Origin: Candidatus Zhuqueibacterota bacterium
GTDB taxonomy: Bacteria > Zhuqueibacterota > QNDG01 > JABMRT01
Direction: 5' to 3'
Assembly: GCA_013202295.1 (NCBI GenBank)
Contig: JABMRT010000080.1
Location: 1-39,082 of the forward strand
DNA length: 39,082 bases
The notes under the pieces were generated by a model, which was not told where the DNA came from, did not search any database, and worked only from the letters and a program-made list of their open reading frames with translations. Each line of letters starts with the position of its first letter. Within the stretch, counting starts at the first letter, position 1. Made by a program: the position numbers and the translations under genes. Below are positions 967 to 38,744 of this stretch, one piece after another.

Positions 967-1030
967 TATTTAGATTGAACCATGATCAGGTTAATCCGAT
1001 AGAATTGTCAGCATATAAAAAGGAGTGATT

Positions 1031-2446
1031 ATGCCGAAAAGCATTGATCTGCATGAGGATCGATATTTTGCCTCTGATCCGGCCGAGCGAAAGATAGCCA
1101 AGAATTTGTATATGCAGGTTAAGGATTTATCTATACTCTCACCGCATGGACATGTGGATCCCAATTTGTTTGTCGAAAATAAGCCTTTTCCTGATCCGAC
1201 CCAATTGCTCGTGATCCCGGATCATTATCTTTTTCGTATGCTGTATTCGCAGGGTATCCCTCTTGAAAAACTGGGTATTCCACGAACAGACGGCGGAGCG
1301 ACAGAGACCGATCATCGGAAAATATGGCAGATTGTGGGAGAGAATATTCACTTGTTTCGAGGCACGCCAACCGGGATGTGGCTGAAACATGAACTTCGTG
1401 AGGTGTTGGGTATTCAGACACGGTTATGTGCAGCAACAGCCATGGACATTTATGATCAAATTGTGGATGCATTGGCAAAACCTGAAAACTTTCCCAGAGC
1501 CATGTATGAGCGGTTTAATATCGAAGTTTTGAGTACCACTGATTTTCCCACGGATTCACTCGAACATGTGGACCGGATTCGCGAAAGCGGATGGAACGCC
1601 CGAATCGTTCCTGCTTTCCGTCCTGACAATGTTACGGATCTGATGCATAAGGATTGGCGCGGTCATATTGATCGACTCTCTGAAATTTCGGGTGAGGATT
1701 GCAGTTCATACAACGGATACATTCAAGCATTAGAGAAACGACGCGTCTTTTTTAAAGAGCAGGGCGCGACATCCACGGATCATGGAGTTTTTACAGCCCT
1801 CACCCTGGAACTTGATCATCGGGAAGCTGAAAAGATCTATGCCAGGGCAATCCATGGCCAGGCCACACCGCAGGATGCCGAAGTTTTCACCGGGCATATG
1901 TTGATGGAAATGGCCCGGATGTCTTGCGAAGATGGAATGACCATGCAGATTCACTCAGGAGTATTTCGTAATCATAATCCGGCGATTTACGCCAAATTCG
2001 GTACAGATAAGGGATGCGATATCCCAATTGCCGAGGACATGGTTCGCCATCTTAAACCTTTGCTGAACAAGTACGGCAATAATCCCGATTTCACACTGAT
2101 CGTCTTCACCATGGATGAAACGGTTTTTGCGCGAGAGCTCGCGCCGCTGGCAGGTCACTATCCAGCTTTAAAAATCGGGCCGGCCTGGTGGTTCAATGAC
2201 AGCCGTGAAGGCATGCTGCGGTATCGACGCATGACCACCGAAACGGCGGGTATTTATAATACGGTGGGATTTAATGATGACACGCGCGCATTCCCGTCCA
2301 TTCCCGCGCGTCATGATCTGGCGCGCCGCACAGACGCTCGCTATCTCGCAGAGCTGGTCGCGGAGCATGTCATTGATCTGGATGAAGCTGAAGAAATGAT
2401 TATGGATTTGACGGTAAATCTCCCGAAGCAGAATTATAAGTTCTAG
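1031..2446 (+). CDS. uxaC: Uronate (glucuronate) isomerase
   Basis: A 471-residue protein, the normal length for UxaC. It interconverts D-glucuronate and D-fructuronate (or galacturonate and tagaturonate), the first cytoplasmic step of hexuronate catabolism. The metal-binding signature SPHGHVDP is near residue 36, followed by the family-typical YLFRMLYSQGI, a DFPTDSLEH segment, and a C-terminal NDDTRAFPSIPARHD block. A GTG six bases upstream is possible, but AGGAG at 1021-1025 is spaced correctly for the ATG at 1031, which I use. The next gene downstream is a secreted sulfatase, which suggests that uronic acids released from sulfated polysaccharides feed this enzyme. That link is inferred from proximity only. 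No uxaB, uxuA or kdgK is present in the window. Confidence 0.95.
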   Translation: MPKSIDLHEDRYFASDPAERKIAKNLYMQVKDLSILSPHGHVDPNLFVENKPFPDPTQLLVIPDHYLFRMLYSQGIPLEKLGIPRTDGGATETDHRKIWQIVGENIHLFRGTPTGMWLKHELREVLGIQTRLCAATAMDIYDQIVDALAKPENFPRAMYERFNIEVLSTTDFPTDSLEHVDRIRESGWNARIVPAFRPDNVTDLMHKDWRGHIDRLSEISGEDCSSYNGYIQALEKRRVFFKEQGATSTDHGVFTALTLELDHREAEKIYARAIHGQATPQDAEVFTGHMLMEMARMSCEDGMTMQIHSGVFRNHNPAIYAKFGTDKGCDIPIAEDMVRHLKPLLNKYGNNPDFTLIVFTMDETVFARELAPLAGHYPALKIGPAWWFNDSREGMLRYRRMTTETAGIYNTVGFNDDTRAFPSIPARHDLARRTDARYLAELVAEHVIDLDEAEEMIMDLTVNLPKQNYKF

Positions 2447-2538
2447 GAATGGAGATTTGTCTTCGCTAAAGAGCCGCTATGGCGGATAAATGGGGAACGG
2501 GGAATGTGTAATCAGGGAAATTTGATAGGACATACAAA

Positions 2539-4035
2539 ATGAATAGATCTGATAAACAAGTGACGAGAAGATCCTTTCTTCAAACAGCCGGAGCGGCTGC
2601 TGCAGCTGTTCCACTTCTGGCCGGGGATTCGAAACTATACAAACTCCAGAAGATTAAAGGTGCAAAACCGAGGAATGTGATTTTCATTCTGAGCGACGAT
2701 CATCGATATGATGCGATGGGTTTTCTTGGCAAACCGAAATTTCTCGAAACGCCTCACATGGATCGGATGGCGCGTGAAGGTGCGTATCTTAAATACGCAT
2801 TTGTAACAACCTCGCTCTGTTCTCCGAGCCGCGCCAGCATTCTGACAGGGCAGTATTCTCACCGACACGGTGTCGTGGATAATCAGTCTTCCGTGCCTGA
2901 AGGCACGGTCTATTTCCCACAATATCTACAGCAAACCGGTGTGCAGACGGCGTTCTTCGGCAAATGGCATATGGGAGACAATGAAGATAATCCCAGACCT
3001 GGATTTGACAAATGGGTCAGCTTCAAAGGGCAGGGCGAGTACCATGATCCCACGTTAAATATTGACGGGAAACGTGAGAAAGTCCAAGGCTATATCTCAG
3101 ACTTGCTGACCGACTACGCTCTGGACTGGCTTGAGAATGATCGCGATCAGAACAAACCCTATTTCCTCTATCTTTCCCACAAAGCAGTGCACGCAATGTT
3201 TCAACCAGCCAAACGGCATCTTGGCACGTATGAGGATGTGGAGGTTGAATATCCCGAGAGTATGGCCAATACAGATGAGAATTATGAAGGCAAGCCGGAT
3301 TGGGTGCGTGCGCAGCGCAACAGCTGGCACGGCGTGGATTATATGTATCATGGCGCGATGGATTTTGATACGTTCTATAAACGATATTGTGAAACGGTCC
3401 GCGGCATTGACGACAGTGTGGGCCGCATTCTTCAATATCTCGAAGAAAAAGGCGAGGCCGAGAATACGGTCGTTTTTTATATGGGTGACAATGGATTCTG
3501 TTTCGGTGAGCACGGCTTGATTGACAAACGTCACATGTATGAATCATCTCAGCGGGTACCGTTTCTCGCCTGGGCACCGGGATTGATACAGCCCGGTACA
3601 CTCATCCAAGATATGGTACAGAACATTGATGTGGCGCCCACTGTGCTTGAACTGGCCGGATTGACAATGCCCGCCAATATGGATGGACATTCCATGTTGC
3701 CGCTCCTCCAAAAGAAGGAAGTCGAGTGGCGTGATGCGGTCTTCTACGAGTATTACTGGGAATGGAATTTCCCCCATACTCCCACAGTGCACGGCATCCG
3801 GACCGATCGATATAAATACATTCATTATCACGGAGTGTGGGATTCAGATGAATTGTACGATCTTGGAAAGGATCCCGACGAACGTCATAATCTAATTCAA
3901 AGTCCTGATCATAAGGACATTATCATCTCTCTGTCCGACCGGCTTTGGGAGTGGTTGGAACAAACGGAGGGTATGAAGATTCCACTTCGCAGGGCTAGAG
4001 GATTCCGGGCGGATCAGCGTGATCCAGAAAAATAA
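2539..4035 (+). CDS. Tat-exported Cys-type sulfatase
   Basis: A 498-residue sulfatase of the alkaline-phosphatase superfamily. The N-terminus has a twin-arginine signal (R10-R11-S-F-L-Q then an Ala-rich stretch), so it is probably exported folded. The active-site signature is C94-S-P-S-R98, meaning the cysteine type that must be converted to formylglycine. Other expected site residues are visible: D53-D54 (LSDDH), K142 and H144 (GKWHMG), D317-N318 (MGDNG), K330 and H332. It hydrolyses a sulfate ester, but sequence alone does not name the substrate; overall it resembles polysaccharide sulfatases more than human lysosomal ones. A ribosome-binding AGGA stands about eight bases before the ATG. 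No formylglycine-generating enzyme or anaerobic sulfatase-maturating enzyme is encoded nearby, so maturation must depend on another locus. Confidence 0.93.
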   Translation: MNRSDKQVTRRSFLQTAGAAAAAVPLLAGDSKLYKLQKIKGAKPRNVIFILSDDHRYDAMGFLGKPKFLETPHMDRMAREGAYLKYAFVTTSLCSPSRASILTGQYSHRHGVVDNQSSVPEGTVYFPQYLQQTGVQTAFFGKWHMGDNEDNPRPGFDKWVSFKGQGEYHDPTLNIDGKREKVQGYISDLLTDYALDWLENDRDQNKPYFLYLSHKAVHAMFQPAKRHLGTYEDVEVEYPESMANTDENYEGKPDWVRAQRNSWHGVDYMYHGAMDFDTFYKRYCETVRGIDDSVGRILQYLEEKGEAENTVVFYMGDNGFCFGEHGLIDKRHMYESSQRVPFLAWAPGLIQPGTLIQDMVQNIDVAPTVLELAGLTMPANMDGHSMLPLLQKKEVEWRDAVFYEYYWEWNFPHTPTVHGIRTDRYKYIHYHGVWDSDELYDLGKDPDERHNLIQSPDHKDIIISLSDRLWEWLEQTEGMKIPLRRARGFRADQRDPEK

Positions 4036-13585: not shown

Positions 13586-15673
13586 TTGAAGGATTTTGCT
13601 TCTGAAATGATTAGAAATATCGGTCTTTTGGGCCACGGCAGCACCGGAAAAACCTCACTGGCTGAAGCATTGCTTTTTACAATGGGCGGAGTAAACCGAA
13701 TAGGGAAGGTGGATGATGGCTCGACAGTAAGCGATTATCATCCTGATGAAATAGGACGGAAATTCTCGATTGGGACGTCTTTGCTTCACGGTGAATGGAA
13801 GGAATGGAAAATCAATATGCTGGATGTGCCCGGCTATTCTGATTTTATTGGTGAAGCCAGAGGCGGCTTAAGAATCCTCGATCTGGCAGTTCTGGTTCTA
13901 AATGGTGTGGAAGGCGTTGAAGTCGGCACAGAGCAGATTTATGAGTCTGCTGAAAAAGGCGGTGTTCCCTGTATGTTCTTTGTCAATCGTCTCGATAACG
14001 AACACGCCGATTTTGATAAAGTTCTGAATATGGCCAAAGAGCGATACGGTACAAAAGCGGTTCCGGTTCAATTCCCTGTGAATCAGGGTCTGGGATTTAG
14101 CAAAATCGTGGATGTGGTTAAGATGAAGCTTCTGACTTACGAGGGTGGAAAAGGCAAAGCCACGCTTTCTGATATTCCCGCTGATCTTCAGGGCAAAGCG
14201 GAAGAGTTGCGTTCCCAGCTGGTCGAATCTGCTGCAGAGAATGATGAAGCACTCATGGAAGCTTATTTTGATAATGAAACACTGACAGATGCGCAGTTGA
14301 AAACCGGATTACGGAAAGGGATTTTATCAGGCAGCTTGATTCCGGTTCTATGTGGTTCCGCCGAGTTGAACGCGGGTTCGGGTGCATTGCTTGATTTTAT
14401 AGGTGAATTTTGTCCCACCCCGCTGGATAAAGGGATCATTACGGGTACGGTACCGGGTAAGGATGATAAAAAAGAACGGATCCTTGCTGTGGATCAACCT
14501 TTGTGTGCATTTGTATTTAAAACAGTTTCAGAGGCGCATGTGGGTGAACTTTCACTGGTTCGCGTCTATTCAGGGCAATTGCAATCCGGTGCTGAAGTAC
14601 AGAATAGTAATCAGGATCGATCTGAGAAAATTGGGCAAATCTATTTGATGAATGGAAAGAATCGTACCGAGACGGGTGTTCTGAAAGCAGGTGACCTCGG
14701 TGCACTGGTAAAGCTGAAAAAAACCTCCACAGGCCATACATTATGCGACAAGAGCGATCCCATTCAGCTTGCACCGATCGCGTTTCCCGATCCGGTGATT
14801 AGTGTGGCTGTCACGCCCAAAAGTCGTGGAGATGAGGAAAAGATATCCACAGGTTTTCATGTGCTGCATGATGAAGATCCCAGTTTTAGAGTGGTGATTG
14901 ATCCCGAACTCAAACAAATGATTCTTTCAGGTCAGGGCGATTTGCATCTGGCCGTGATTATTGGCCGGCTGAAAGAAAAGTATGGTGTGGAAGTGACTGA
15001 AGAACGTCCGAAGATACCTTATCGTGAAACCATTACAGCCAAAGCCGATGACAAATACCGTCACAAGAAACAAACCGGTGGTGCCGGTCAATTTGCCGAA
15101 GTCTGGATGAGAGTTGAACCGCAGCCGCGCGGCGAAGGATTTGCTTTCGAAAATGTGATCAAGGGCGGCAGTATTTCAGCTGTTTTCATTCCTTCCATCG
15201 AAAAGGGCATCAAGCATGTACTTGTTGAAGGCCCCCTTGCAGGTTACAATGTGGTTGATGTGAAGGCCATCGTGTACGATGGCAAAGAGCATCCGGTGGA
15301 CTCAAAAGATATTGCGTTTCAAAGCGCGGGGCGTGAAGTTTTCAAATCTGCATTCTTAAAGGCTCGTCCGATTCTCCTTGAACCGATTTACGATATCGAA
15401 GTCAAAGTGCCTGAAGAGGCCATGGGTGATGTCATGGGCGACCTTTCCAGCCGGCGCGGCAAGATAATGGGGATGGAAACCATGGGACATTTTCAAATTA
15501 TCAAAGCCAAGGTACCGCTTGCTGAACTCGATCAATATGCCACGACATTGCGGTCTATTACATCTGGCCGCGGGATTTACAAACGGTCATTATCACATTA
15601 TGATCCCATGCCGAAAGAGAGTGAAGCCAAAGTGATTGCGGATGCGCATAAAACCAAGGAAGAAGATAAATAA
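13586..15673 (+). CDS. Elongation factor G-like translation GTPase (EF-G2 type)
   Basis: A 695-residue GTPase with the whole EF-G domain order: G domain, domain II, then III-V ending in the typical GRGIYKRSLSHYDPMP. The P-loop is GHGSTGKT (16-23). The switch II motif reads D80-V-P-G-Y84, with tyrosine in place of the catalytic histidine of canonical EF-G (DTPGH), and the base-recognition motif is NRLD (134-137). Those changes are typical of the EF-G-like paralogue group (for example Thermus EF-G-2), so I do not assign it as the main translocase. AAGGAGG six bases before the TTG at 13586 favours that start over an upstream GTG at 13565. Third gene of the lipA operon. Family known, cellular role uncertain. 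Confidence 0.88.
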   Translation: MKDFASEMIRNIGLLGHGSTGKTSLAEALLFTMGGVNRIGKVDDGSTVSDYHPDEIGRKFSIGTSLLHGEWKEWKINMLDVPGYSDFIGEARGGLRILDLAVLVLNGVEGVEVGTEQIYESAEKGGVPCMFFVNRLDNEHADFDKVLNMAKERYGTKAVPVQFPVNQGLGFSKIVDVVKMKLLTYEGGKGKATLSDIPADLQGKAEELRSQLVESAAENDEALMEAYFDNETLTDAQLKTGLRKGILSGSLIPVLCGSAELNAGSGALLDFIGEFCPTPLDKGIITGTVPGKDDKKERILAVDQPLCAFVFKTVSEAHVGELSLVRVYSGQLQSGAEVQNSNQDRSEKIGQIYLMNGKNRTETGVLKAGDLGALVKLKKTSTGHTLCDKSDPIQLAPIAFPDPVISVAVTPKSRGDEEKISTGFHVLHDEDPSFRVVIDPELKQMILSGQGDLHLAVIIGRLKEKYGVEVTEERPKIPYRETITAKADDKYRHKKQTGGAGQFAEVWMRVEPQPRGEGFAFENVIKGGSISAVFIPSIEKGIKHVLVEGPLAGYNVVDVKAIVYDGKEHPVDSKDIAFQSAGREVFKSAFLKARPILLEPIYDIEVKVPEEAMGDVMGDLSSRRGKIMGMETMGHFQIIKAKVPLAELDQYATTLRSITSGRGIYKRSLSHYDPMPKESEAKVIADAHKTKEEDK

Positions 15674-16213
15674 TTGGCAGAGTCAAATCCAAAAGAAAGC
15701 AAGCGGATTCTCTGGGCACCCTGGCGCATTCAATACATCGAGAATTGTGATACACCAGAGGGATGCATTTTTTGCGATAAACCCAAAGAGGATAAGGATC
15801 GTGAGAATCTGATTGTCTTTCGTGGTCAGACGATGTTCATTATAATGAATCGTTATCCTTATAATAACGGCCATCTCATGATTGTGCCCTACAGGCATAC
15901 GTGTGATTTAGCGTCCCTGAGCCGGGATGAACAGATTGAATCCTTTGATTTGCTGGCTGCATCCAAAACAGTATTGGCAGAAGTGATGCGTCCACACGGT
16001 TACAATATCGGGATGAATCTGGGTCGAGTCGCCGGGGCCGGTATTGCCGACCATTTGCATTATCACATTGTTCCCAGATGGGATGGCGACACCAATTTTA
16101 TGCCGATCCTGGGTGCTGCAAAAGTTGTTTCTGAAGGATTGGAACAAACATGGGAAAAACTGATTCAAGGATTTAAATCCATTCAAATAAAAACAAATCC
16201 TGAAGGAGAATAA
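15674..16213 (+). CDS. HIT family nucleotide hydrolase/phosphorylase
   Basis: A 179-residue histidine-triad protein. The catalytic triad H127-x-H129-x-H131 is in [11 protein letters not shown], and C31-x-x-C34 with H75 may bind zinc, as in the group related to mycobacterial Ap4A phosphorylase. The N-terminal [10 protein letters not shown] is a hallmark of that group. Such enzymes split dinucleoside polyphosphates or AMP conjugates. The start is TTG directly after the EF-G-like stop codon, with purine-rich GGAAGAAG upstream; no better start is available. Part of the lipA operon. Confidence 0.88.
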
Positions 16214-16214
16214 A

Positions 16215-16880
16215 ATGAAAGCAAATCGATCGATCTGGATATTATTGGTACTCCTCGCTATATCAATGACCGCATGTAATGCAAATGAAGCGAGTGAGTT
16301 GAAATCTGAAACCCAACCAAAAGAGGTTCAAGTGACTGATCAACCCATCCCAATCGTTATAGAAACCAGCGCAGGTAATATTGAACTGGAACTGTATCCG
16401 GACAAGGCGCCTGTATCGGTTAAAAATTTTCTGGGCTACGTAGAGAGTGGCTTTTACGATAATACGATTTTTCATCGCGTCATTCGTGGATTCATGATTC
16501 AAGGTGGCGGATTTGATAAAGACCATGCCGAAAAACAATCTGGTGAGCCGATTGTCAACGAAGCGGGTAATGGTCTGAAAAATCTTCGTGGTACAATTGC
16601 TTATGCGCGTACCAATGTGGTCAACAGCGCGACCGCTCAGTTTTTTATTAATCATGGCGATAATGCGTCTCTCAATCATCAGAATGAGACTCAGGCCGGA
16701 TTTGGATATGCCGTATTTGGCAAGGTGACAAAGGGCATTGAAGTTGTGGATAAAATTGCCGGCGTTAAAACAGGTACAAAAAAGATGACCATCATGTATC
16801 AGGGTCAAAAAAAACAACAGCCTTATCAGGATGTGCCTCTGGAACCGGTGATCGTGAAATCGATAAAGGTTGTCCAGTAA
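16215..16880 (+). CDS. Lipoprotein cyclophilin-type peptidyl-prolyl isomerase
   Basis: A 221-residue cyclophilin with a lipoprotein signal: hydrophobic core then SMTAC with the lipidated cysteine at 21, and a short linker to about residue 45. The isomerase domain shows [13 protein letters not shown] with the catalytic arginine, ATAQFFIN, and [12 protein letters not shown]. It should therefore act on proteins in the periplasm, anchored to a membrane. A GAAGGAGAA box precedes the ATG and the gene begins one base after the HIT stop, so it is the last member of the operon begun by lipA. Confidence 0.92.
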
Positions 16881-30450: not shown

Positions 30451-31551
30451 ATGCATGTTAAGATCCATTTGTCAAGCCTTTTGATAATTTCATTGACTTT
30501 TATCCTTTTTTGTACTCCGCCAGCAGCGATTAATGTTCAAGTGATGAAACCAGCCGCTATTCATTTACCGGGTATTCGAACTTTGGCAGTCGCTGATTTT
30601 CAGGGCCAGGGCCGATCCGGAAGTCAAATCGCAACACGGTTACAAGCTTATCTGCTGGAAACAGACTATTATGACATTCTAGAACGGGACAAACTGAAAC
30701 AGATTCTCGATGAACAGAATCTGGGTATGACTGGCGTGGTGGATGAAGCTACGGCAGTGGAGATCGGTAAACTACTGGGCGTGGATGCCATGATTTTTGG
30801 AGAGGTCACTGAATATCAGGTTGAACAGGATGAGCGGGGAAAAGAGAAAGTGCATCGTAAGGTGGGTACAGGTAAATATGAATGGGTAGAGCAAAAAAAT
30901 ATTTTTACTGGTAAGAAAAGCAAAGTGAAAAAAGAGATTATGAAAACAGTGCTGGTCGATCAGCATTACCGGATACGACGCGGTACGGCAGCTATTAATT
31001 TTCGCGCAGTGAAGGTCGAAACCGGGGAACTGCTGGCTGTTCACAGTGATTCCAAGAGTTACAATAGCGGCAAAGTGATCGAGGGCAGCAACAAGACTTT
31101 AAAACCAATAGGTGAGATTCTTTCAAATCTATCAGGAGGAATTTGCCGCAAGTTCGTCGGTATGATTGCCCCGCATTATGTGGATGAAACACGCTATGTC
31201 GAATCGGGTAAGGGATTGATCAAGACCGGAAAAAAATATGCTGAGAATGGTCTTTGGCCCGAAGCTGTGGATGCATGGGAGCAAGCGACTGTAATCCATC
31301 CAAAGGAACCGTCTGTGTGGTACAATCTGGGAGCTGCTGCTGAAATGGATGGGGATCTTGATCTGGCCGAGGAGTATTACAAAAAGGCAGTGGCCCTGAA
31401 ACAAAAGGACCTTTACATGGAATCCATTCAGCGGATTCGCAAGAAGCGTGAGGATCAGGCCAAACTTGAAGAGCAGTTCCGGGAGCGGGATGAGGTAGAA
31501 GAGGAGGATGAAGAAGAAGTGGAGATTGATCCATTTGATGGCTCGTTTTAA
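30451..31551 (+). CDS. CsgG-like lipoprotein with C-terminal TPR
   Basis: A 366-residue protein. A hydrophobic signal ends at ILFC (C21), a weak lipobox. Residues 40-235 match the CsgG/DUF799-like fold: TLAVADFQGQGRSGSQIATRLQAYLLETDYYDILERDKLKQILDEQNLG, GVDAMIFGEVTEY and GTAAINFRAVKVETGELL. Residues 255-335 contain two TPR-type helical hairpins (AENGLWPEAVDAWEQA and YNLGAAAEMDGDLDLAEEYY), and the end is a Glu/Asp-rich tail. CsgG proteins form secretion channels or bind envelope assembly partners. A GAGAGGG box precedes the ATG. It might work with the outer-membrane-type protein upstream (CsgG and FlgT-like domains occur together in other bacteria), though separated by a terminator. Confidence 0.75.
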   Translation: MHVKIHLSSLLIISLTFILFCTPPAAINVQVMKPAAIHLPGIRTLAVADFQGQGRSGSQIATRLQAYLLETDYYDILERDKLKQILDEQNLGMTGVVDEATAVEIGKLLGVDAMIFGEVTEYQVEQDERGKEKVHRKVGTGKYEWVEQKNIFTGKKSKVKKEIMKTVLVDQHYRIRRGTAAINFRAVKVETGELLAVHSDSKSYNSGKVIEGSNKTLKPIGEILSNLSGGICRKFVGMIAPHYVDETRYVESGKGLIKTGKKYAENGLWPEAVDAWEQATVIHPKEPSVWYNLGAAAEMDGDLDLAEEYYKKAVALKQKDLYMESIQRIRKKREDQAKLEEQFRERDEVEEEDEEEVEIDPFDGSF

Positions 31552-31620: not shown

Positions 31621-31653
31621 AAAACATCCTCCTTGCAAGGAGGATGTTTTTTT
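31621..31653 (+). terminator. Rho-independent terminator after the CsgG-like gene
   Basis: A perfect 30-base inverted repeat (arms AAAACATCCTCCTTG and its complement, centre at 31635/31636), GC-rich in the middle and followed by T residues. Confidence 0.9.
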
Positions 31654-31666
31654 ATGCTCGAAGTGC

Positions 31667-31695
31667 TTGATTTTCTCCGATTAATCCTCTATTTT
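31667..31695 (+). promoter_or_regulatory. Promoter with GATTAATC palindrome, copy 1
   Basis: TTGATT (31667-31672), 17 bases, TATTTT (31690-31695). The spacer contains the 8-base palindrome GATTAATC at 31679-31686. The predicted start near 31702 leaves about 50 bases to the ATG. Two more copies of the same arrangement lie at 34870-34898 and 38668-38696. Confidence 0.65.
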
Positions 31696-31752
31696 GGTTC
31701 AATCTTTGTGGTATTATGTGTCACTGTCCATAGATAAACAAGAGAGGGTCAA

Positions 31753-34700
31753 ATGTCTTTACGGAAAATTATTCTGGTTATGGGTTTGTATCTCATATCG
31801 AACAGCGTGTTGATTTCAGCCTATCCAGAACAGGGATATCAATATCTGCATCCAAAGCCTGATGCGAAATATGCATCTGAAGCGACAACATTGATCATAC
31901 GTTTTGAGAGTATATCGCCTGATCAAGTTCAGAATTTAGATAAGTTCATCTCCGTTTCAGGTGAGGAGAGCGGTATCCATTTTGGTAAGAGTAAAATCGC
32001 ATCCGATCAAAAAACAGTTATCTTCACTCCGGATGAATACTTCCAACCTGGCGAAACAGTTACAGTGACACTCGCACCTATCATCCAATCATCATCTATT
32101 GAATCTATCAACTATCAGTTTACTGTGATTGCATCAAGTGTGGCCGATTATTCCGTATTAAACGAAGTAGATGAACGGGAATCAATCCATCGATATGAAC
32201 CGTCTCAGAAACGTCCCTCCTCTCAGGCGACGATTTTACCGAACGGTGTTTCAGTGCCGAGTGATTTTCCTCATGTGGAGATCACAGTCAATGACAATCC
32301 CTCCTCAGATTATATCTTCATCGACAACCGCGGTGGTGGACCGGGCCGGCCCTATAATGTCATCTTTGACAATACCGGATCACCTGTCTGGTATATTCAT
32401 CCGAACGATGAACGGCGTGATTTTAAAGTGCAACCGAACGGGTGGATCACCATGCTGATCCGTGGAGGATATGGTGGTTCCGGATGGGGACACATCGCGC
32501 TGGATGGGAGCTATGATTATGTGAAGACTTTCCGCGCTACGAATGGGTACACGACCGATGAGCATGAACTGCAAGTACTCGAAGATGGCGGCTGGTTGGT
32601 CATCGGCCGCAGAGATGTACAAAATGTTGATTTGAGCAGCTACGGTGGAAATCCCAACGCGACTGTTCGTGAGACCTGTATTCAGGAGTACACTGCGAAT
32701 GATGAATTGATCTTTCAGTGGGCTGCCTTCGATCATTTTAATATCGGGGATCTCGAAGGAGAAAGTTTGAACTCTTCCTATATTCGTTTTCCTCATATGA
32801 ATGCGATTGATATTGATGATGATGGACATATTATTTTATCGAGTCGCCATCTCAGTGAAATCTCAAAAATTCACAGAAATTCGGGTGAATTTATTTGGCG
32901 TTTGAGTGGCGCGCATAACCAATTTACGTTTGTTAATGATCCATTACAGGGGACACGAAATCAACATGCGGCCAGAGCTCTCGGTGGAGGAGTTTATACT
33001 GCATTTGACAATGGGAATGGTCATAATCCGCCTATTTCAAGGGCTGTGAAATATCAGATCAACACCAGTCAGATGACAGCCACACTGATTTGGTCATACA
33101 ATGAAGACGGATGGTTTTCTCAGCACATGAGCAATGCACAGCAACTTTCAAATGGAAATATGCTAATCAACTGGGGACAAAGTTATCTTCCGAAACTGAC
33201 AGAGATCAGACCGGATGGCAGCAAGGCGTTTCATATGGATTTTGTCTATAACTCAGAATGTTATCGGGTGCATCGATGCGCATGGAATGGCATGGCCGAA
33301 GTGCCTGTGCTGGATGTTGAACCGGCCCCTGATAACATCACATTGCTCATGAATAAATTTGGTGATCCTGATGTGGATTATTACAGGATTTACTCTGGCC
33401 GCAGTCAGAATCCAACCACAGTGTTTGACACATCAAATACCTCCTTGAAGAAAATTTATAATCTTGACAATGGGTATCACTGGATCCGGGTTACAGCCGT
33501 TGACAATGGAGGACTGGAGAGTGGATATTCAAATCAGGAACAGGTCTATGTAAGCTTTGTGACACCTGGTACAAATCTTGTCCAGAACGGAGATTTTTCC
33601 AACGGTCAGAATGACTGGACTTGGGAACTTCAGGGAGCCGGTGATGCAACCTGGTCGATTGTGGATGGCGCTGCGAACATCCAAATCACAAACGGCGGCA
33701 GCGCTGTCTATGCTGTGCAGCTCAGACAGAATAATATCCCCCTGATTCAGGGCAATACCTATATGTTTGAATTTGATGCCTCGGCGGATGCTTCCCGCAC
33801 AATAGAAGCCAAAGTCGGGCAGGATAGTTCTCCCTACACGAATTACAGCCAGATTGGACCCACATTCATTACACCGATTCCCGATCGGTTTTCCTATGAA
33901 TTTGATATGGAATCGGCCAGTGATGCCAATGGACGCGTTGTGTTCAATATGGGTGAGTCAAATGCCAATGTCACAATCGACAATGTCAGGGTGGGTCAGA
34001 AACTTGAACAGTATTCCTTTTTAGGATCTCCTCATGAATTGCCCGGCACGATTCAATGCGAGGAGTATGATTTCGGCGGTGAGGGCATCGCCTATCATGA
34101 TGATGATGCAAGGAGTGGAAATCCGGAATACAGGCCCGATGATAATGTGGATGTTGAGACAGCGGATGATGTGGATGGGGGATACAATATCGGATATGTC
34201 AATCCAGGAGAATGGCTTGAATATACCGTGAATGTTGAGTCGGGGATTTATAATATTGAATACCGAGTTGCTTCTGATCCCGGGGGTGGTGTGCTTGAAG
34301 TTGAACTTGATGGAGAGTCCCTGGCCACATTCAATGTGGAATCAACAGGTGATTGGCAGGAGTACGTGACGCTTACACAATCGGGCGTTGAACTAGAGGG
34401 TGACGACAATATTGTATTACGACTCAATATCATTGAGGAAGGTCAGAACCTGAACTGGCTTCGATTTGTGAATACAACCAGCAATGTACCCGAAAAGTCT
34501 GCAATACCGCTGAATTATGCGCTACATCAAAATTATCCAAATCCATTCAACCCAGAAACACGGATTGATTATCAGATCCCAGCTAAAAGCGACGTGCTTA
34601 TTCGCATATATAATGTTGCTGGCAAATTAGTGAGTACACTGCTGGATGAAGCACTGTCAAGCGGACAGCATCAGGTTTTATGGGATGGAAGGGATTCTCA

Positions 34701-34788
34701 CGGCGTACAGCAAGCAAGTGGACTCTACCTTATTTCCATGCAAGCCGGATCATTCAAGGCAGTGAGGAAAATAACCCTGTTAAGATAA
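31753..34788 (+). CDS. Secreted arylsulfotransferase-fold protein with CBM6 and sorting domain (paralogue 1)
   Basis: A 1011-residue exported protein. Order: signal peptide (1-23); Ig-like domain of the Big_5 type (30-130); arylsulfotransferase-type beta-propeller (about 195-510); fibronectin-like linker (520-600); CBM4/9-like domain (605-748); CBM6-like domain (765-905, ECEEYDFGGEGIAYHD and GEWLEYTVNV); and a C-terminal sorting domain (915-1011, NYPNPFNPETRIDY to KITLLR). Candidate site residues in the propeller are H271 (DEHELQ), H348 (PHMNAID), R365 (SSRHLSE), H405/R408 (NQHAAR) and H458, agreeing with the ASST family pattern; activity is not proven. GAGAGGG before the ATG. Known ASSTs move sulfate between phenols; here a surface role with sugar binding is inferred. 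The CBM6 module is missing from the paralogue downstream. Confidence 0.88.
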   Translation: MSLRKIILVMGLYLISNSVLISAYPEQGYQYLHPKPDAKYASEATTLIIRFESISPDQVQNLDKFISVSGEESGIHFGKSKIASDQKTVIFTPDEYFQPGETVTVTLAPIIQSSSIESINYQFTVIASSVADYSVLNEVDERESIHRYEPSQKRPSSQATILPNGVSVPSDFPHVEITVNDNPSSDYIFIDNRGGGPGRPYNVIFDNTGSPVWYIHPNDERRDFKVQPNGWITMLIRGGYGGSGWGHIALDGSYDYVKTFRATNGYTTDEHELQVLEDGGWLVIGRRDVQNVDLSSYGGNPNATVRETCIQEYTANDELIFQWAAFDHFNIGDLEGESLNSSYIRFPHMNAIDIDDDGHIILSSRHLSEISKIHRNSGEFIWRLSGAHNQFTFVNDPLQGTRNQHAARALGGGVYTAFDNGNGHNPPISRAVKYQINTSQMTATLIWSYNEDGWFSQHMSNAQQLSNGNMLINWGQSYLPKLTEIRPDGSKAFHMDFVYNSECYRVHRCAWNGMAEVPVLDVEPAPDNITLLMNKFGDPDVDYYRIYSGRSQNPTTVFDTSNTSLKKIYNLDNGYHWIRVTAVDNGGLESGYSNQEQVYVSFVTPGTNLVQNGDFSNGQNDWTWELQGAGDATWSIVDGAANIQITNGGSAVYAVQLRQNNIPLIQGNTYMFEFDASADASRTIEAKVGQDSSPYTNYSQIGPTFITPIPDRFSYEFDMESASDANGRVVFNMGESNANVTIDNVRVGQKLEQYSFLGSPHELPGTIQCEEYDFGGEGIAYHDDDARSGNPEYRPDDNVDVETADDVDGGYNIGYVNPGEWLEYTVNVESGIYNIEYRVASDPGGGVLEVELDGESLATFNVESTGDWQEYVTLTQSGVELEGDDNIVLRLNIIEEGQNLNWLRFVNTTSNVPEKSAIPLNYALHQNYPNPFNPETRIDYQIPAKSDVLIRIYNVAGKLVSTLLDEALSSGQHQVLWDGRDSHGVQQASGLYLISMQAGSFKAVRKITLLR

Positions 34789-34814
34789 TCCTAAATTGAA
34801 AATAGTCGATTCCC

Positions 34815-34854
34815 AACGTTCCCGATATAAAATAATATCGAGAACGTTTTTTTT
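34815..34854 (+). terminator. Rho-independent terminator between the two paralogues
   Basis: AACGTTCCCGATAT (34815-34828) pairs with ATATCGAGAACGTT (34835-34848) with one mismatch, followed by a run of T. It ends the first arylsulfotransferase-like transcript just before the second promoter. Confidence 0.9.
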
Positions 34855-34869
34855 GATCTTGTGAATTAC

Positions 34870-34898
34870 TTGATTTTCTCAGATTAATCCTATATTTT
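34870..34898 (+). promoter_or_regulatory. Promoter with GATTAATC palindrome, copy 2
   Basis: TTGATT (34870-34875), 17 bases, TATTTT (34893-34898), with GATTAATC at 34882-34889. It matches copy 1 at most positions from the -35 box to about 20 bases past the -10, and has the same distance (about 55 bases) from -10 to ATG. Confidence 0.65.
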
Positions 34899-34953
34899 GA
34901 TTCAATCTTTGTCCCACTTTATGCACCTATCTATAAAAAACAGAAGGGATCAA

Positions 34954-37530
34954 ATGTCCTTTAAGAAAATATTTGTTGATACGATTTTGTTTTTACTCTT
35001 GATTACTTCATTATTTTCAGGATATCACGATCAAGGCTATCAATACCTTTACCCAAAACCTGATTCAAAATTTGTCTCATCCGGAACCACGCTGATTATC
35101 CGCTTTGAACAAATATTACCCGCACAGGTAAAGAACTTGGAGGTATTTGTATCCATTACAGGGGAAGAAAGCGGAATTCACACTGGAAAGACCAAAATTG
35201 CATCCGATCAGAAAACAGTCCTTTTCATGCCTGACACTCCATTTATTCCCGAAGAGATGGTGACGGTGACTCTCACGCCAGTCATCAATTCTCCGAAAAA
35301 GACAGATATCAAACCCATTACTTATCAATTCAAAGTGATTAAGCACATCGTGTCCGATTATGAAGTAATGAAGGAGGCGGATGATGCTGTTTCCATCAAT
35401 TCACCAGAACCTTTGCAGAGATTTTCTGCTTCTCAGGCGATGATCATGCCCAATGGAGTTTCTGTGCCAAGTGACTTTCCTCATGTTGAGATTACTGTGA
35501 ATGACAATCCCAGTACGGATTATATTTTTATCGACAATCGCGGTGGCGGACCGGGCAGGCCTTATAATGTGATTTTTGACAACACCGGATCTCCGGTCTG
35601 GTACATGCAGACACTGGCTGAACGGCGCGACTTCAAGGTACAGAGGAACGGGTGGATTACCATGAGGATACAAAGCAATGACGACTATGGTAATAGGGAT
35701 GGATTTATCGCGTTTGATGAAAATTTTAATTTCATTAAGACTTTTCACGCCACTGGCGATGGTGTCTCAACAGATGAACATGAACTTCAAGTGCGTGATG
35801 ATGGTGGATACCTGCTCATCGGACTCAGATGGGTTTCCATTGATTTGACTCCCTGGGGCGGTCCTCCAGACGCAAGTATCGGTGAAACCGGTCTTCAGGA
35901 ATTCACGGCTGATGATGAATGTATTTTTCAATGGTGGGCTCTGGATCATTTTGATATAGCCGATGTGGAATTGGAATCTTTGACGAGCTCCTCAATGAGG
36001 TTCCCTCACATGAATGCCATTGATATTGACGATGATGATAACATCATTCTTTCCAGCCGGCATCTCAGTGAAATTACAAAGATTGAACGGGGAACCGGAG
36101 ACTTCATCTGGCGCCTGGGTGGTGCGCACAATCAGTTTACTTTCATTGACGATCCTCTGCAAGGCACCAGAAACCAGCACGCGGCCAGGGCACTCGGTGG
36201 AGGAATTTATACCGCATTCGACAATGGCAACGGGCATAATCCCTCGGTTTCACGTGCTGTGAAATACCAACTCAATACAGATCTGATGACAGCCACACTG
36301 ATCTGGGAATACAGGGAAGCCGGGTGGTATTCGCATCATATGAGTAATGCACAACAGCTCCCAAATGGAAACATGTTGATAAACTGGGCACAGAGCTCTC
36401 TCCCTAAACTGACAGAGATCAGACCGGATGGCAGCAAGGCGTTTCATATGGATTTTGTATATGCTTCTGAATGTTACCGCGTGCATCGTTTCGCCTGGGA
36501 TGGGATGGTGGATGTGCCCGTACTTGAAGTTGAACCTGGTATTGATAATGTGACGTTGCTTTTCAATAAATTCGGTGATCCGGATGTGGATCATTACAAT
36601 ATCTATTCCGGGCGTAGTCAAAATCCAACCACAATACTCGATACATCCAAGACTACCTTAAAGAAGATTTATGGTTTAGAGAATGGGTCTCACTGGATTC
36701 GTGTAACTGCTGTGAATCACAGTAGTCAGGAGAGTGGGTATTCCAATCAAGTACAGGTGTATGTGAACTCCACCAATCCCGGAGATAATCTTGTGATCAA
36801 TGGTGACTTTTCTGATGGTAAGAATGGATGGACATGGGAGCTGCAGGGTTCTGGTGAGGGAGAATGGTCTATTGACGATGGCGCAGCCCAAATTGATATT
36901 TCCAATGCGGGCAGCAATGTCTATGATGTGCAAATCAGGCAGAACAACATTCTCCTGATTCAGGGACACACCTATGTATTCGAGTTTGATGCATGGGCGG
37001 ATGCATCCCGATCCATCGAGGCCAAGGTCGGTCAAGATGTCTCTCCATATACCAATTATAGTCAGCTCGGCCCTACATTTATTACTCCAATTCCCCAGCA
37101 ATTCTCTTATGAGTTTAATATGGAGTCCGCAATCGATGCCAATGCGCGTGTGGTATTTAACTGTGGTCAGTCCAGCCCGAATGTGACTATCGACAATGTC
37201 TCGCTTAAACTTGTTGATACAAGTGTTCCAGATGAAATACAGGCTGTTCCGAATGAATATGTACTCTATCCCAATTTCCCGAATCCATTCAATCCCGAAA
37301 CGCAGATTGATTATAAATTACCGGAAGAGAATTGTGTTCTCATCCGAGTCTATAATGTGCTGGGCAAACTCGTCCAAACTTTGGTGGATGAAAAGCAGAT
37401 GCAGGGACGTTATCATGTTCTCTGGGATGGCACAGATCTTAGCGGTGTGCAGCAAGCATCCGGATTGTATATTATCCAATTGCAGGCAGGATCATTCAGG
37501 GCCATGAAGAAAATCACTTTATTGCGATGA
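34954..37530 (+). CDS. Secreted arylsulfotransferase-fold protein with sorting domain (paralogue 2)
   Basis: An 858-residue paralogue of the protein upstream, with the same order except that the CBM6 module is absent: signal peptide (1-23), Ig-like (30-130), arylsulfotransferase-type propeller (about 198-515), linker (525-605), CBM4/9-like (610-750) and sorting domain (765-858). Candidate site residues are kept: H276 (DEHELQ), H352 (PHMNAID), R369 (SSRHLSE), H409/R412 (NQHAAR) and H461/H462. I start at the ATG at 34954 (MSFKK, parallel to MSLRK in the first copy) after AGAAGGG; the upstream in-frame TTG at 34897 falls inside the promoter. The last bases overlap the start of the C45-type lipoprotein (ATGA), so the two are translationally coupled. 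Confidence 0.88.
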   Translation: MSFKKIFVDTILFLLLITSLFSGYHDQGYQYLYPKPDSKFVSSGTTLIIRFEQILPAQVKNLEVFVSITGEESGIHTGKTKIASDQKTVLFMPDTPFIPEEMVTVTLTPVINSPKKTDIKPITYQFKVIKHIVSDYEVMKEADDAVSINSPEPLQRFSASQAMIMPNGVSVPSDFPHVEITVNDNPSTDYIFIDNRGGGPGRPYNVIFDNTGSPVWYMQTLAERRDFKVQRNGWITMRIQSNDDYGNRDGFIAFDENFNFIKTFHATGDGVSTDEHELQVRDDGGYLLIGLRWVSIDLTPWGGPPDASIGETGLQEFTADDECIFQWWALDHFDIADVELESLTSSSMRFPHMNAIDIDDDDNIILSSRHLSEITKIERGTGDFIWRLGGAHNQFTFIDDPLQGTRNQHAARALGGGIYTAFDNGNGHNPSVSRAVKYQLNTDLMTATLIWEYREAGWYSHHMSNAQQLPNGNMLINWAQSSLPKLTEIRPDGSKAFHMDFVYASECYRVHRFAWDGMVDVPVLEVEPGIDNVTLLFNKFGDPDVDHYNIYSGRSQNPTTILDTSKTTLKKIYGLENGSHWIRVTAVNHSSQESGYSNQVQVYVNSTNPGDNLVINGDFSDGKNGWTWELQGSGEGEWSIDDGAAQIDISNAGSNVYDVQIRQNNILLIQGHTYVFEFDAWADASRSIEAKVGQDVSPYTNYSQLGPTFITPIPQQFSYEFNMESAIDANARVVFNCGQSSPNVTIDNVSLKLVDTSVPDEIQAVPNEYVLYPNFPNPFNPETQIDYKLPEENCVLIRVYNVLGKLVQTLVDEKQMQGRYHVLWDGTDLSGVQQASGLYIIQLQAGSFRAMKKITLLR

Positions 37531-38627
37531 GAAAAATATTTCCCATATTTCTGCTTGGTTACCTTTTCTGCTTTTGTTCAACTCCTGAACCGCGAGAGAT
37601 CAGAGTGGTTGAGCTCTCCGGATCTCCGTACAATCGGGGGCTGATCCACGGACAGATATTGATGGAGGAGGTTCATGCGATCCTCAATCAATTTGAAGCG
37701 CACGTGGAGCAAATGCATGAATTGCAGATTGATAGTGTTAAGACCGAATACCTGGCGAAGATTCGATATCAGAATGCGATTCAGCAGTGGAATCCAGCTT
37801 TGCTTGATGAGGTGCGAGGCATCGCCGATGGTGCGGATGTCGATTTCGAAACGCTGTTCCTGTTTCAAATGGGCGAGGAGTTTTTAACCTACCTCAACGA
37901 GACGCAACCGAAACGCTGCACTGCCATCGGTGTGAGCCATACGGATGACGCGCCCTGTATTGTGGCTCAGAATATGGATCCTCCTTATTTCCTGCATGGT
38001 TTTCCCACCCTGTTACATATTGAGTATGACAGTCTTGACCTTGAATCCTATGTCCTTACCGCTCCCGGATTGTTGGCATTAAACGGTATGAACAGCAAAG
38101 GGATCGGAATCACAGCAAATGGGCTGTCGGGACTCAATCCCGATTTGAAGGGACTGCCTGTCGCGTTTGTCATCCGGACTACACTAGAACAGACCTCTAT
38201 TAAAGATGCTGTTTCATTTATTAAATCTGTCAATCACGCCAAGGCGCAAAATTATATTGTGGGTGGTCCGGAAGAAGCTGTCAGTCTTGAATGTGACGGT
38301 CGGAAGATCCACTCTTTTGTATCCGAGAAGAATTCGAAAGTGACATACCATACCAATCATTATCTGGCGCGTCCACATGTTTCGAATTATGACTATTGTT
38401 CCCGTCTTGAGACAATGAAAGAGGCGCTGGAAAAGGTTGATTATCAGATCGGATTTAAAGAAATTCAGAAAATTCTGAGCTCCACCAAATGGAACGCGGG
38501 CCGTCCCATCAGCCATCCTTTTTGCTATGGCTCGACGATCATGGTGCTAGGTTCGCCGCCTGAACTTTATCTCGCTCCGGGACAGCCAGATCTTTATGAT
38601 TATGTCAGATTCGGATTTGAGGATTGA
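37527..38627 (+). CDS. C45/acyl-CoA:6-APA acyltransferase-type NTN-hydrolase lipoprotein
   Basis: A 366-residue protein with a lipoprotein-like signal (GYLFCFCSTPE; C15 or C17 lipidated). The SGSPYNRGLIHGQ segment is the conserved beginning of the C45/AAT family, and KRCTAIGV gives C131, the residue expected to become the N-terminal nucleophile after self-cleavage of the precursor. AQNMDPP, LTAPGLLALNGMNSKGIGITANG and the YIVGGPEEAVSLE block continue the family pattern. Relatives hydrolyse or transfer acyl groups on amides (isopenicillin N acyltransferase, bile-salt/acid amide hydrolases). Its four-base overlap with the arylsulfotransferase-fold gene implies co-expression at the cell surface. 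No substrate can be named. Confidence 0.85.
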   Translation: MRKIFPIFLLGYLFCFCSTPEPREIRVVELSGSPYNRGLIHGQILMEEVHAILNQFEAHVEQMHELQIDSVKTEYLAKIRYQNAIQQWNPALLDEVRGIADGADVDFETLFLFQMGEEFLTYLNETQPKRCTAIGVSHTDDAPCIVAQNMDPPYFLHGFPTLLHIEYDSLDLESYVLTAPGLLALNGMNSKGIGITANGLSGLNPDLKGLPVAFVIRTTLEQTSIKDAVSFIKSVNHAKAQNYIVGGPEEAVSLECDGRKIHSFVSEKNSKVTYHTNHYLARPHVSNYDYCSRLETMKEALEKVDYQIGFKEIQKILSSTKWNAGRPISHPFCYGSTIMVLGSPPELYLAPGQPDLYDYVRFGFED

Positions 38628-38667: not shown

Positions 38668-38696
38668 TTGCATAATTCCGATTAATCTTCTATTTT
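38668..38696 (+). promoter_or_regulatory. Promoter with GATTAATC palindrome, copy 3
   Basis: TTGCAT (38668-38673), 17 bases, TATTTT (38691-38696), GATTAATC at 38680-38687. The position of every element matches copies 1 and 2, and a GGAG ribosome site and ATG follow about 40 to 50 bases on. Confidence 0.55.
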
Positions 38697-38744
38697 GTTA
38701 AAACTAAATATAGAACCTTTGTCATTGTATCATGGAGAATGTAG

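Follow-up and report, generated by a model that had tools for sequence, protein, structure and literature searches.

What reaction might be carried out by two large neighbouring proteins that join an arylsulfotransferase propeller to carbohydrate-binding modules, and from where would they draw their sulfate? The question is raised by contig JABMRT010000080.1 of an uncultured Candidatus Zhuqueibacterota (KSB1) bacterium (assembly GCA_013202295.1), which was analysed whole, as a window of 39,082 nucleotides, and which belongs to a draft metagenome-assembled genome of 303 contigs and 5.15 Mb. The two genes, here called AssT1 and AssT2, stand in tandem ahead of a gene for a C45-type hydrolase (coordinates of all features are collected in the table). 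AssT1 and AssT2 are best read as exported arylsulfate sulfotransferases of a Cpz4-like branch, independent of 3'-phosphoadenosine 5'-phosphosulfate (PAPS), with a glycan as the most likely acceptor and a donor that could be supplied by a module on another contig, C218, a reading to which we give a probability of about 0.55.

Both open reading frames (ORFs) are intact, and their matches to the arylsulfotransferase family PF05935 (E=4.5e-30 and 105 bits for AssT1, E=1.7e-25 and 90 bits for AssT2) lie far over the curated cut-off of 24.2, which bears out the two large proteins of this fold reported in a first-pass annotation of the sequence. The start of AssT2 is taken as the ATG at 34954, the mechanical ORF opening at an upstream TTG. 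The carbohydrate-binding modules (CBMs) that had been noticed are also present, CBM4_9 being matched in both proteins and CBM6 in AssT1 only, and the tails described as type IX-like exceed the TIGR04183 cut-off of 23 in both (27.3 and 31.8 bits). The Ig-like domain fared less evenly, a beta-sandwich is modelled with high confidence at the N-terminus of AssT1, whilst the Big_5 match stays under its cut-off of 23.6 in AssT1 (19.2) and AssT2 (16.5) alike. As the genome encodes a homologue of the type IX translocon protein SprA (PF14349, 138.6 bits) and both proteins have sorting tails, they are predicted to be exported and attached to the surface by type IX secretion. No paper linking an arylsulfotransferase with type IX secretion was found in the literature searched, and for arylsulfotransferases with CBMs only unrelated fungal work was found.

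Residue correspondence was taken from a profile alignment in which 43 propeller domains of the phylum were aligned to solved structures. The active site of EcAssT, the enzyme of E. coli CFT073 (PDB 3elq), consists of H252, H356, N358, R374 and H436 together with T501 (PMC13426309), and the first five align with H271, H348, N350, R365 and H405 of AssT1 and with H276, H352, N354, R369 and H409 of AssT2, H405 and H409 being the counterparts of the EcAssT sulfohistidine, H436. The histidine and arginine positions named in the first-pass annotation (H271/H276, H348/H352, R365/R369 and H405/H409) were therefore correctly chosen. Conservation amongst the 43 aligned domains is high, with H271, N350 and H405 kept in 43/43, H348 in 42/43 and R365 in 34/43. 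AlphaFold2, given 61 relatives, modelled residues 22-605 of AssT1 with a mean predicted local distance difference test score (pLDDT) of 93.2 and a predicted template modelling score (pTM) of 0.91; the best Foldseek match of this model in the PDB is Cpz4 (9kf6, E 1.4e-28, TM 0.72 by target; also 9kf4), with EcAssT 3elq next in the ranking (E 3.7e-17), so that model and top matches together support a beta-propeller fold. The presence of the full catalytic set of EcAssT and Cpz4, and the fact that these enzymes are the best fold matches, favour the suggestion of sulfotransfer made earlier. The window proteins share with EcAssT the N-terminal beta-sandwich, the propeller and the five conserved residues, although identity over the fold match is about 16%, T501 is not conserved, and EcAssT itself is periplasmic and has neither CBMs nor a sorting tail.

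Among solved structures Cpz4 comes closest, in sequence profile (204 bits) as well as in fold, and its His/His/Asn/Arg/His set aligns in the same way. The pyrone of the caprazamycin pathway, to which Cpz4 belongs, is made by a type III polyketide synthase. Sulfation in that pathway has two steps, the PAPS-dependent Cpz8 sulfates the triketide pyrone, which is then the donor for Cpz4 (PMC4257720, PMC6731281), and Cpz4 prefers a sugar hydroxyl as its acceptor (PMC13426309). A PAPS-dependent sulfotransferase and a ketide-forming enzyme are likewise encoded in the present genome. Unlike Cpz4, the window proteins add predicted export, the N-terminal sandwich, an FN3 domain, CBMs and a type IX tail, and come from a family with 26 copies in the genome. 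No antibiotic cluster was seen, and as the ketide enzyme is of the KASIII type in place of a type III polyketide synthase, the system is classed as one that works like the Cpz pathway and not as a member of it.

The candidate donor module lies on contig C218, where genes for a KASIII-like ketosynthase and then a PAPS-type sulfotransferase come after that of a B-type AssT, as defined below (G000:C218:33225-35458; L046:13223-15459). The sulfotransferase, which stands beside AssT genes, scores 59.6 bits against PF13469 (cut-off 27). The same module is found beside a B-type AssT in G061 (L157), G047 (L076) and G007 (L077), giving four genomes of the KSB1 phylum in total. A close homologue of the sulfotransferase occurs in 4/82 genomes of the phylum, every one of them AssT-positive when 24/82 are positive (p=0.006), and the three largest AssT expansions (26, at least 20 and 15 copies) are all among the four genomes with the module. 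The ketosynthase falls under the curated FabH cut-off (226.9 against 292.1 bits), and a separate FabH-like gene is present on C79. Its best PDB matches are two pyrone-forming ketosynthases, 4v2p (193 bits), which we take to be MxnB, and CorB (4yuc), and the Cys, His and Asn of its triad align with theirs. As the scores of FabH enzymes are not far below these (161 bits), pyrone formation by the ketosynthase is treated as a lead. The glutamate of PpyS-type enzymes was considered as a marker of pyrone synthases and set aside as not diagnostic, since MxnB and CorB have Val at this position and the C218 ketosynthase has Ile (PMC4578411).

In the reading favoured here, His405 or His409 in the propeller pocket would be transiently sulfated by a small donor of the arylsulfate or enol-sulfate type, with the sulfuryl group then handed from the sulfohistidine to an acceptor hydroxyl in a ping-pong reaction. 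CBM4_9 and, in AssT1, CBM6 would keep the enzyme on a polysaccharide, making a glycan the most likely acceptor, and it seems reasonably probable that the surface AssTs direct their sulfotransfer to glycans. As the compartment of these enzymes would be without PAPS, a diffusible sulfated donor would be needed, and this could be made by the KASIII-like ketosynthase and the PAPS-dependent sulfotransferase of C218. That the module does make the donor for the surface AssTs of the four genomes is a tentative proposal, with the odds somewhat against it. A fuller relay is doubtful as a whole: in it these two enzymes would make, within the cell, a membrane-crossing sulfated carrier of pyrone or enol type, up to 26 surface AssTs bearing glycan-binding modules would use it to write sulfate patterns on extracellular polysaccharide, and the conserved, arginine-poor B-type protein would assist the A-type enzyme in a specialised role, as carrier holder or regulator. 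According to a 2026 review, the natural sulfuryl acceptors of most AssT enzymes are unidentified and their physiological roles are poorly understood (PMC13426309), and the dozens of surface AssT copies in the uncultured KSB1 phylum, with their glycan-binding modules and a linked donor-making candidate, provide a concrete and testable proposal for both a natural donor and an acceptor.

Several points weigh against this reading. The module is outside the window, and it is found in only 4/24 of the AssT-positive genomes of the phylum, so that the donor of most AssTs must be a different one. Of the four genomes that have the module, at least three are from Zodletone spring; their habitats are therefore not independent and lateral sharing could contribute, and the ketosynthase could serve an unrelated lipid synthesis. 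T501 of EcAssT is replaced by Met in the window proteins; it is Gln in Cpz4, and as Cpz4 is an active enzyme this residue is not treated as defining. Sulfuryl transfer by AssT1 and AssT2 is itself a prediction from sequence and fold. Finally, the CBM4 and CBM6 modules would also be compatible with polysaccharide degradation.

The last point leads to the alternative that survives best, namely that the enzymes serve degradation, lifting sulfate off environmental sulfated polysaccharides or phenolic sulfates to another acceptor or to water and thereby aiding glycan breakdown. Several genomes have glycoside hydrolases (GHs) of families GH5, GH3, GH31, GH88 and GH43 as recurrent neighbours of AssT genes, and within the window, some 29 kb from the pair, a sulfatase gene adjoins one for a glucuronate isomerase. 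However, GHs make up a small part of the neighbours: the 103 genes immediately beside AssTs give a diffuse Pfam tally, in which even the leaders, GH5 and CotH, account for 5 and 4. Aryl sulfates are the substrates of the AssTs known so far, which as a rule pass the sulfate on instead of hydrolysing the ester; with sugars, Cpz4 adds sulfate and does not remove it (PMC13426309), and a module with a PAPS sulfotransferase argues for donor synthesis. A degradative role is consequently considered unlikely, yet it is to be taken seriously.

The tandem pairing of AssT genes is not peculiar to this window and proves to be a real and widespread pattern, with a second AssT directly adjacent in 26/50 public loci that extend for 1.5 kb or more to either side. 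In a tree of 154 domains most of the adjacent partners group in a single clade, termed B (support 96; 40 rows), with members from KSB1, Verrucomicrobiota, Planctomycetota, Ignavibacteriota, Bacteroidota, Calditrichota and Gemmatimonadota. A non-B AssT adjoins 33/40 of the B proteins, a fraction that is inflated by most of them having been found in the flanks of A loci. The sulfohistidine is kept in 38/40 B proteins, and R365 and R505 are both kept in 8/40 of them against 108/114 of the others (Fisher p ~1e-19, a descriptive value as the rows are related). An A-type AssT paired with a distinct, arginine-poor B-type is thus a conserved arrangement in at least seven phyla, examples among L078-L157 being L107:9926-14986 and L086:1416-7353; no description of such a pair with a degenerate partner was found in the literature searched. 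The window pair itself is placed outside clade B among the A partners, and so is of the type A+A, the B-type AssT of this genome being the one on C218.

The usual loss of one active-site arginine in the B-type subfamily, together with the existence of many divergent copies of large multidomain surface proteins with CBMs, might point to a catalytically dead propeller that serves as a structural adhesin or lectin, as the first-pass annotation had allowed. Outside clade B the His nucleophile is kept in 114/114 AssT domains and every aligned catalytic residue in 107/114, and a scaffold would not be expected to show such strict conservation across 30-60% identity. This alternative is very improbable, and for the window pair, in which both proteins retain all of the aligned catalytic residues, it was rejected on the strength of residue conservation.

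The assembly holds 26 PF05935 matches, some in the tandem arrays of C218 and C53, the others as singles elsewhere. In the tree AssT1 and AssT2 pair as sisters (support 100); they are 70% identical over residues 1-751, with homology reaching upstream of both genes, and the pair is a recent tandem duplication within this 26-copy family. An 18-bp motif has three copies, all at the AssT locus, and none elsewhere in the assembly at <=1 mismatch; the chance expectation in the window at <=3 mismatches is 0.17. The third copy lies ahead of an interrupted signal-peptide-like ORF, which suggests that a decayed third tandem unit may follow the C45 gene. A probable pseudogene is also seen in the family, the paralogue at G000:C255:22640-24343 having an in-frame TGA. 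AssT1 is flanked on both sides by strong hairpins with U-runs, so only AssT2 and the C45 gene appear to share a transcription unit and AssT1 appears to form its own.

The C45 gene was thought in the first-pass annotation to be coupled to the tandem. Its product scores 168 bits against NF040521 (NCBIfam cut-off 85) and Cys131 aligns with the nucleophile Cys of AAT in an intact nucleophile region, as is seen in the C45 family of isopenicillin N acyltransferase-like enzymes, from which it differs in being a probable lipoprotein and in its lack of a conserved AssT link. Its lipobox, LFCFC-S, is not canonical, whilst relatives have the canonical FVAC and LFSC. The four-base overlap that had been noted is real, ATGA being common to the stop of AssT2 and the start of the C45 gene, and co-translation is likely; the coupling thus holds for AssT2 and not for AssT1, which the hairpins bracket. 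The adjacency in relatives by which the first-pass annotation proposed to check the unit was not found: a relative of the C45 gene flanked AssT at 0/80 related loci in public genomes (many contigs are short) and an AssT stood beside 0/5 C45 relatives in the phylum, so the arrangement is local only. Co-occurrence at the level of genomes is weak (4/6, Fisher p=0.06), and the genome has one C45 gene against its 26 AssT genes. The C45 protein was therefore rejected as a functional partner of AssT and is probably a lineage-specific neighbour that is read through from AssT2. The idea that amide or acyl processing follows sulfotransfer at the surface, for which the overlap and the intact nucleophile region speak, is highly improbable given the unconserved adjacency, the single gene, the weak co-occurrence and the separate termination of AssT1.

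Features of the AssT locus, in positions of the window
Feature	Position	Strand	Remarks
AssT1	31753..34788	+	intact ORF, 1011 aa; signal peptide, N-terminal beta-sandwich, AssT propeller, FN3-like domain, CBM4_9, CBM6, type IX sorting tail
AssT propeller of AssT1	32305..33243	+	PF05935 match and residue alignment to EcAssT and Cpz4
AssT1 active-site codons	H271 (32563), H348 (32794), N350 (32800), R365 (32845), H405 (32965)	+	
CBM4_9 module of AssT1 (aa 608-734)	33574..33954	+	PF02018 E=1.5e-14
CBM6 module of AssT1 (aa 793-906)	34129..34470	+	PF03422 E=3e-19; no counterpart in AssT2
Type IX secretion sorting tail of AssT1 (aa 928-1007)	34534..34773	+	TIGR04183 27.3 bits
AssT2	34954..37530	+	intact ORF, 858 aa from ATG; AssT1 architecture without CBM6
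C45 (AAT-like) N-terminal nucleophile (NTN) hydrolase/acyltransferase, probable lipoprotein	37527..38627	+	candidate nucleophile Cys131; NF040521 168 bits; PDB 2x1d alignment
Terminator-like hairpin upstream of AssT1	31621..31650	+	end of CsgG/TPR gene unit; 13-bp stem, U-run, fold z = -6.05
Terminator-like hairpin between AssT1 and AssT2	34815..34848	+	z = -4.37, then U-run
18-bp motif, copy 1 (GATTAATCCTCTATTTTG)	31679..31696	+	56 bases before AssT1 ATG; presumed promoter region
18-bp motif, copy 2	34882..34899	+	54 bases before AssT2 ATG
18-bp motif, copy 3	38680..38697	+	downstream of C45 gene; then interrupted signal-peptide-like ORF (MSMKQ*NPSLLFAIVVLFSG...)

Clustering of the neighbours around AssT loci gave no universal partner gene, the largest cluster being shared sorting tails, followed by small groups of GH3, GH16, PD40 and a Verrucomicrobia-only protein. 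In other phyla and in G007, genes for GH5, CotH-kinase, GH43 and GH88 adjoin AssT (L107:8551-9768 and 15269-16618; L140:5424-9318). A PD40 propeller protein with a CANCH motif (CxxCH, haem-type) also recurs beside AssT in several genomes, as at L050:3235-4866 (-), with relatives at L063/L098, L064/L100 and L102. Within the window, the gene ahead of AssT1 (30451-31551) encodes a CsgG-like lipoprotein with TPR repeats and a very acidic tail, and is parted from AssT1 by a strong terminator. At the other end of the contig, positions 1025-4035 hold a glucuronate isomerase gene and then a sulfatase gene whose product has an SGSH-type C-terminus, a possible sign of sulfated uronan or glycosaminoglycan breakdown.

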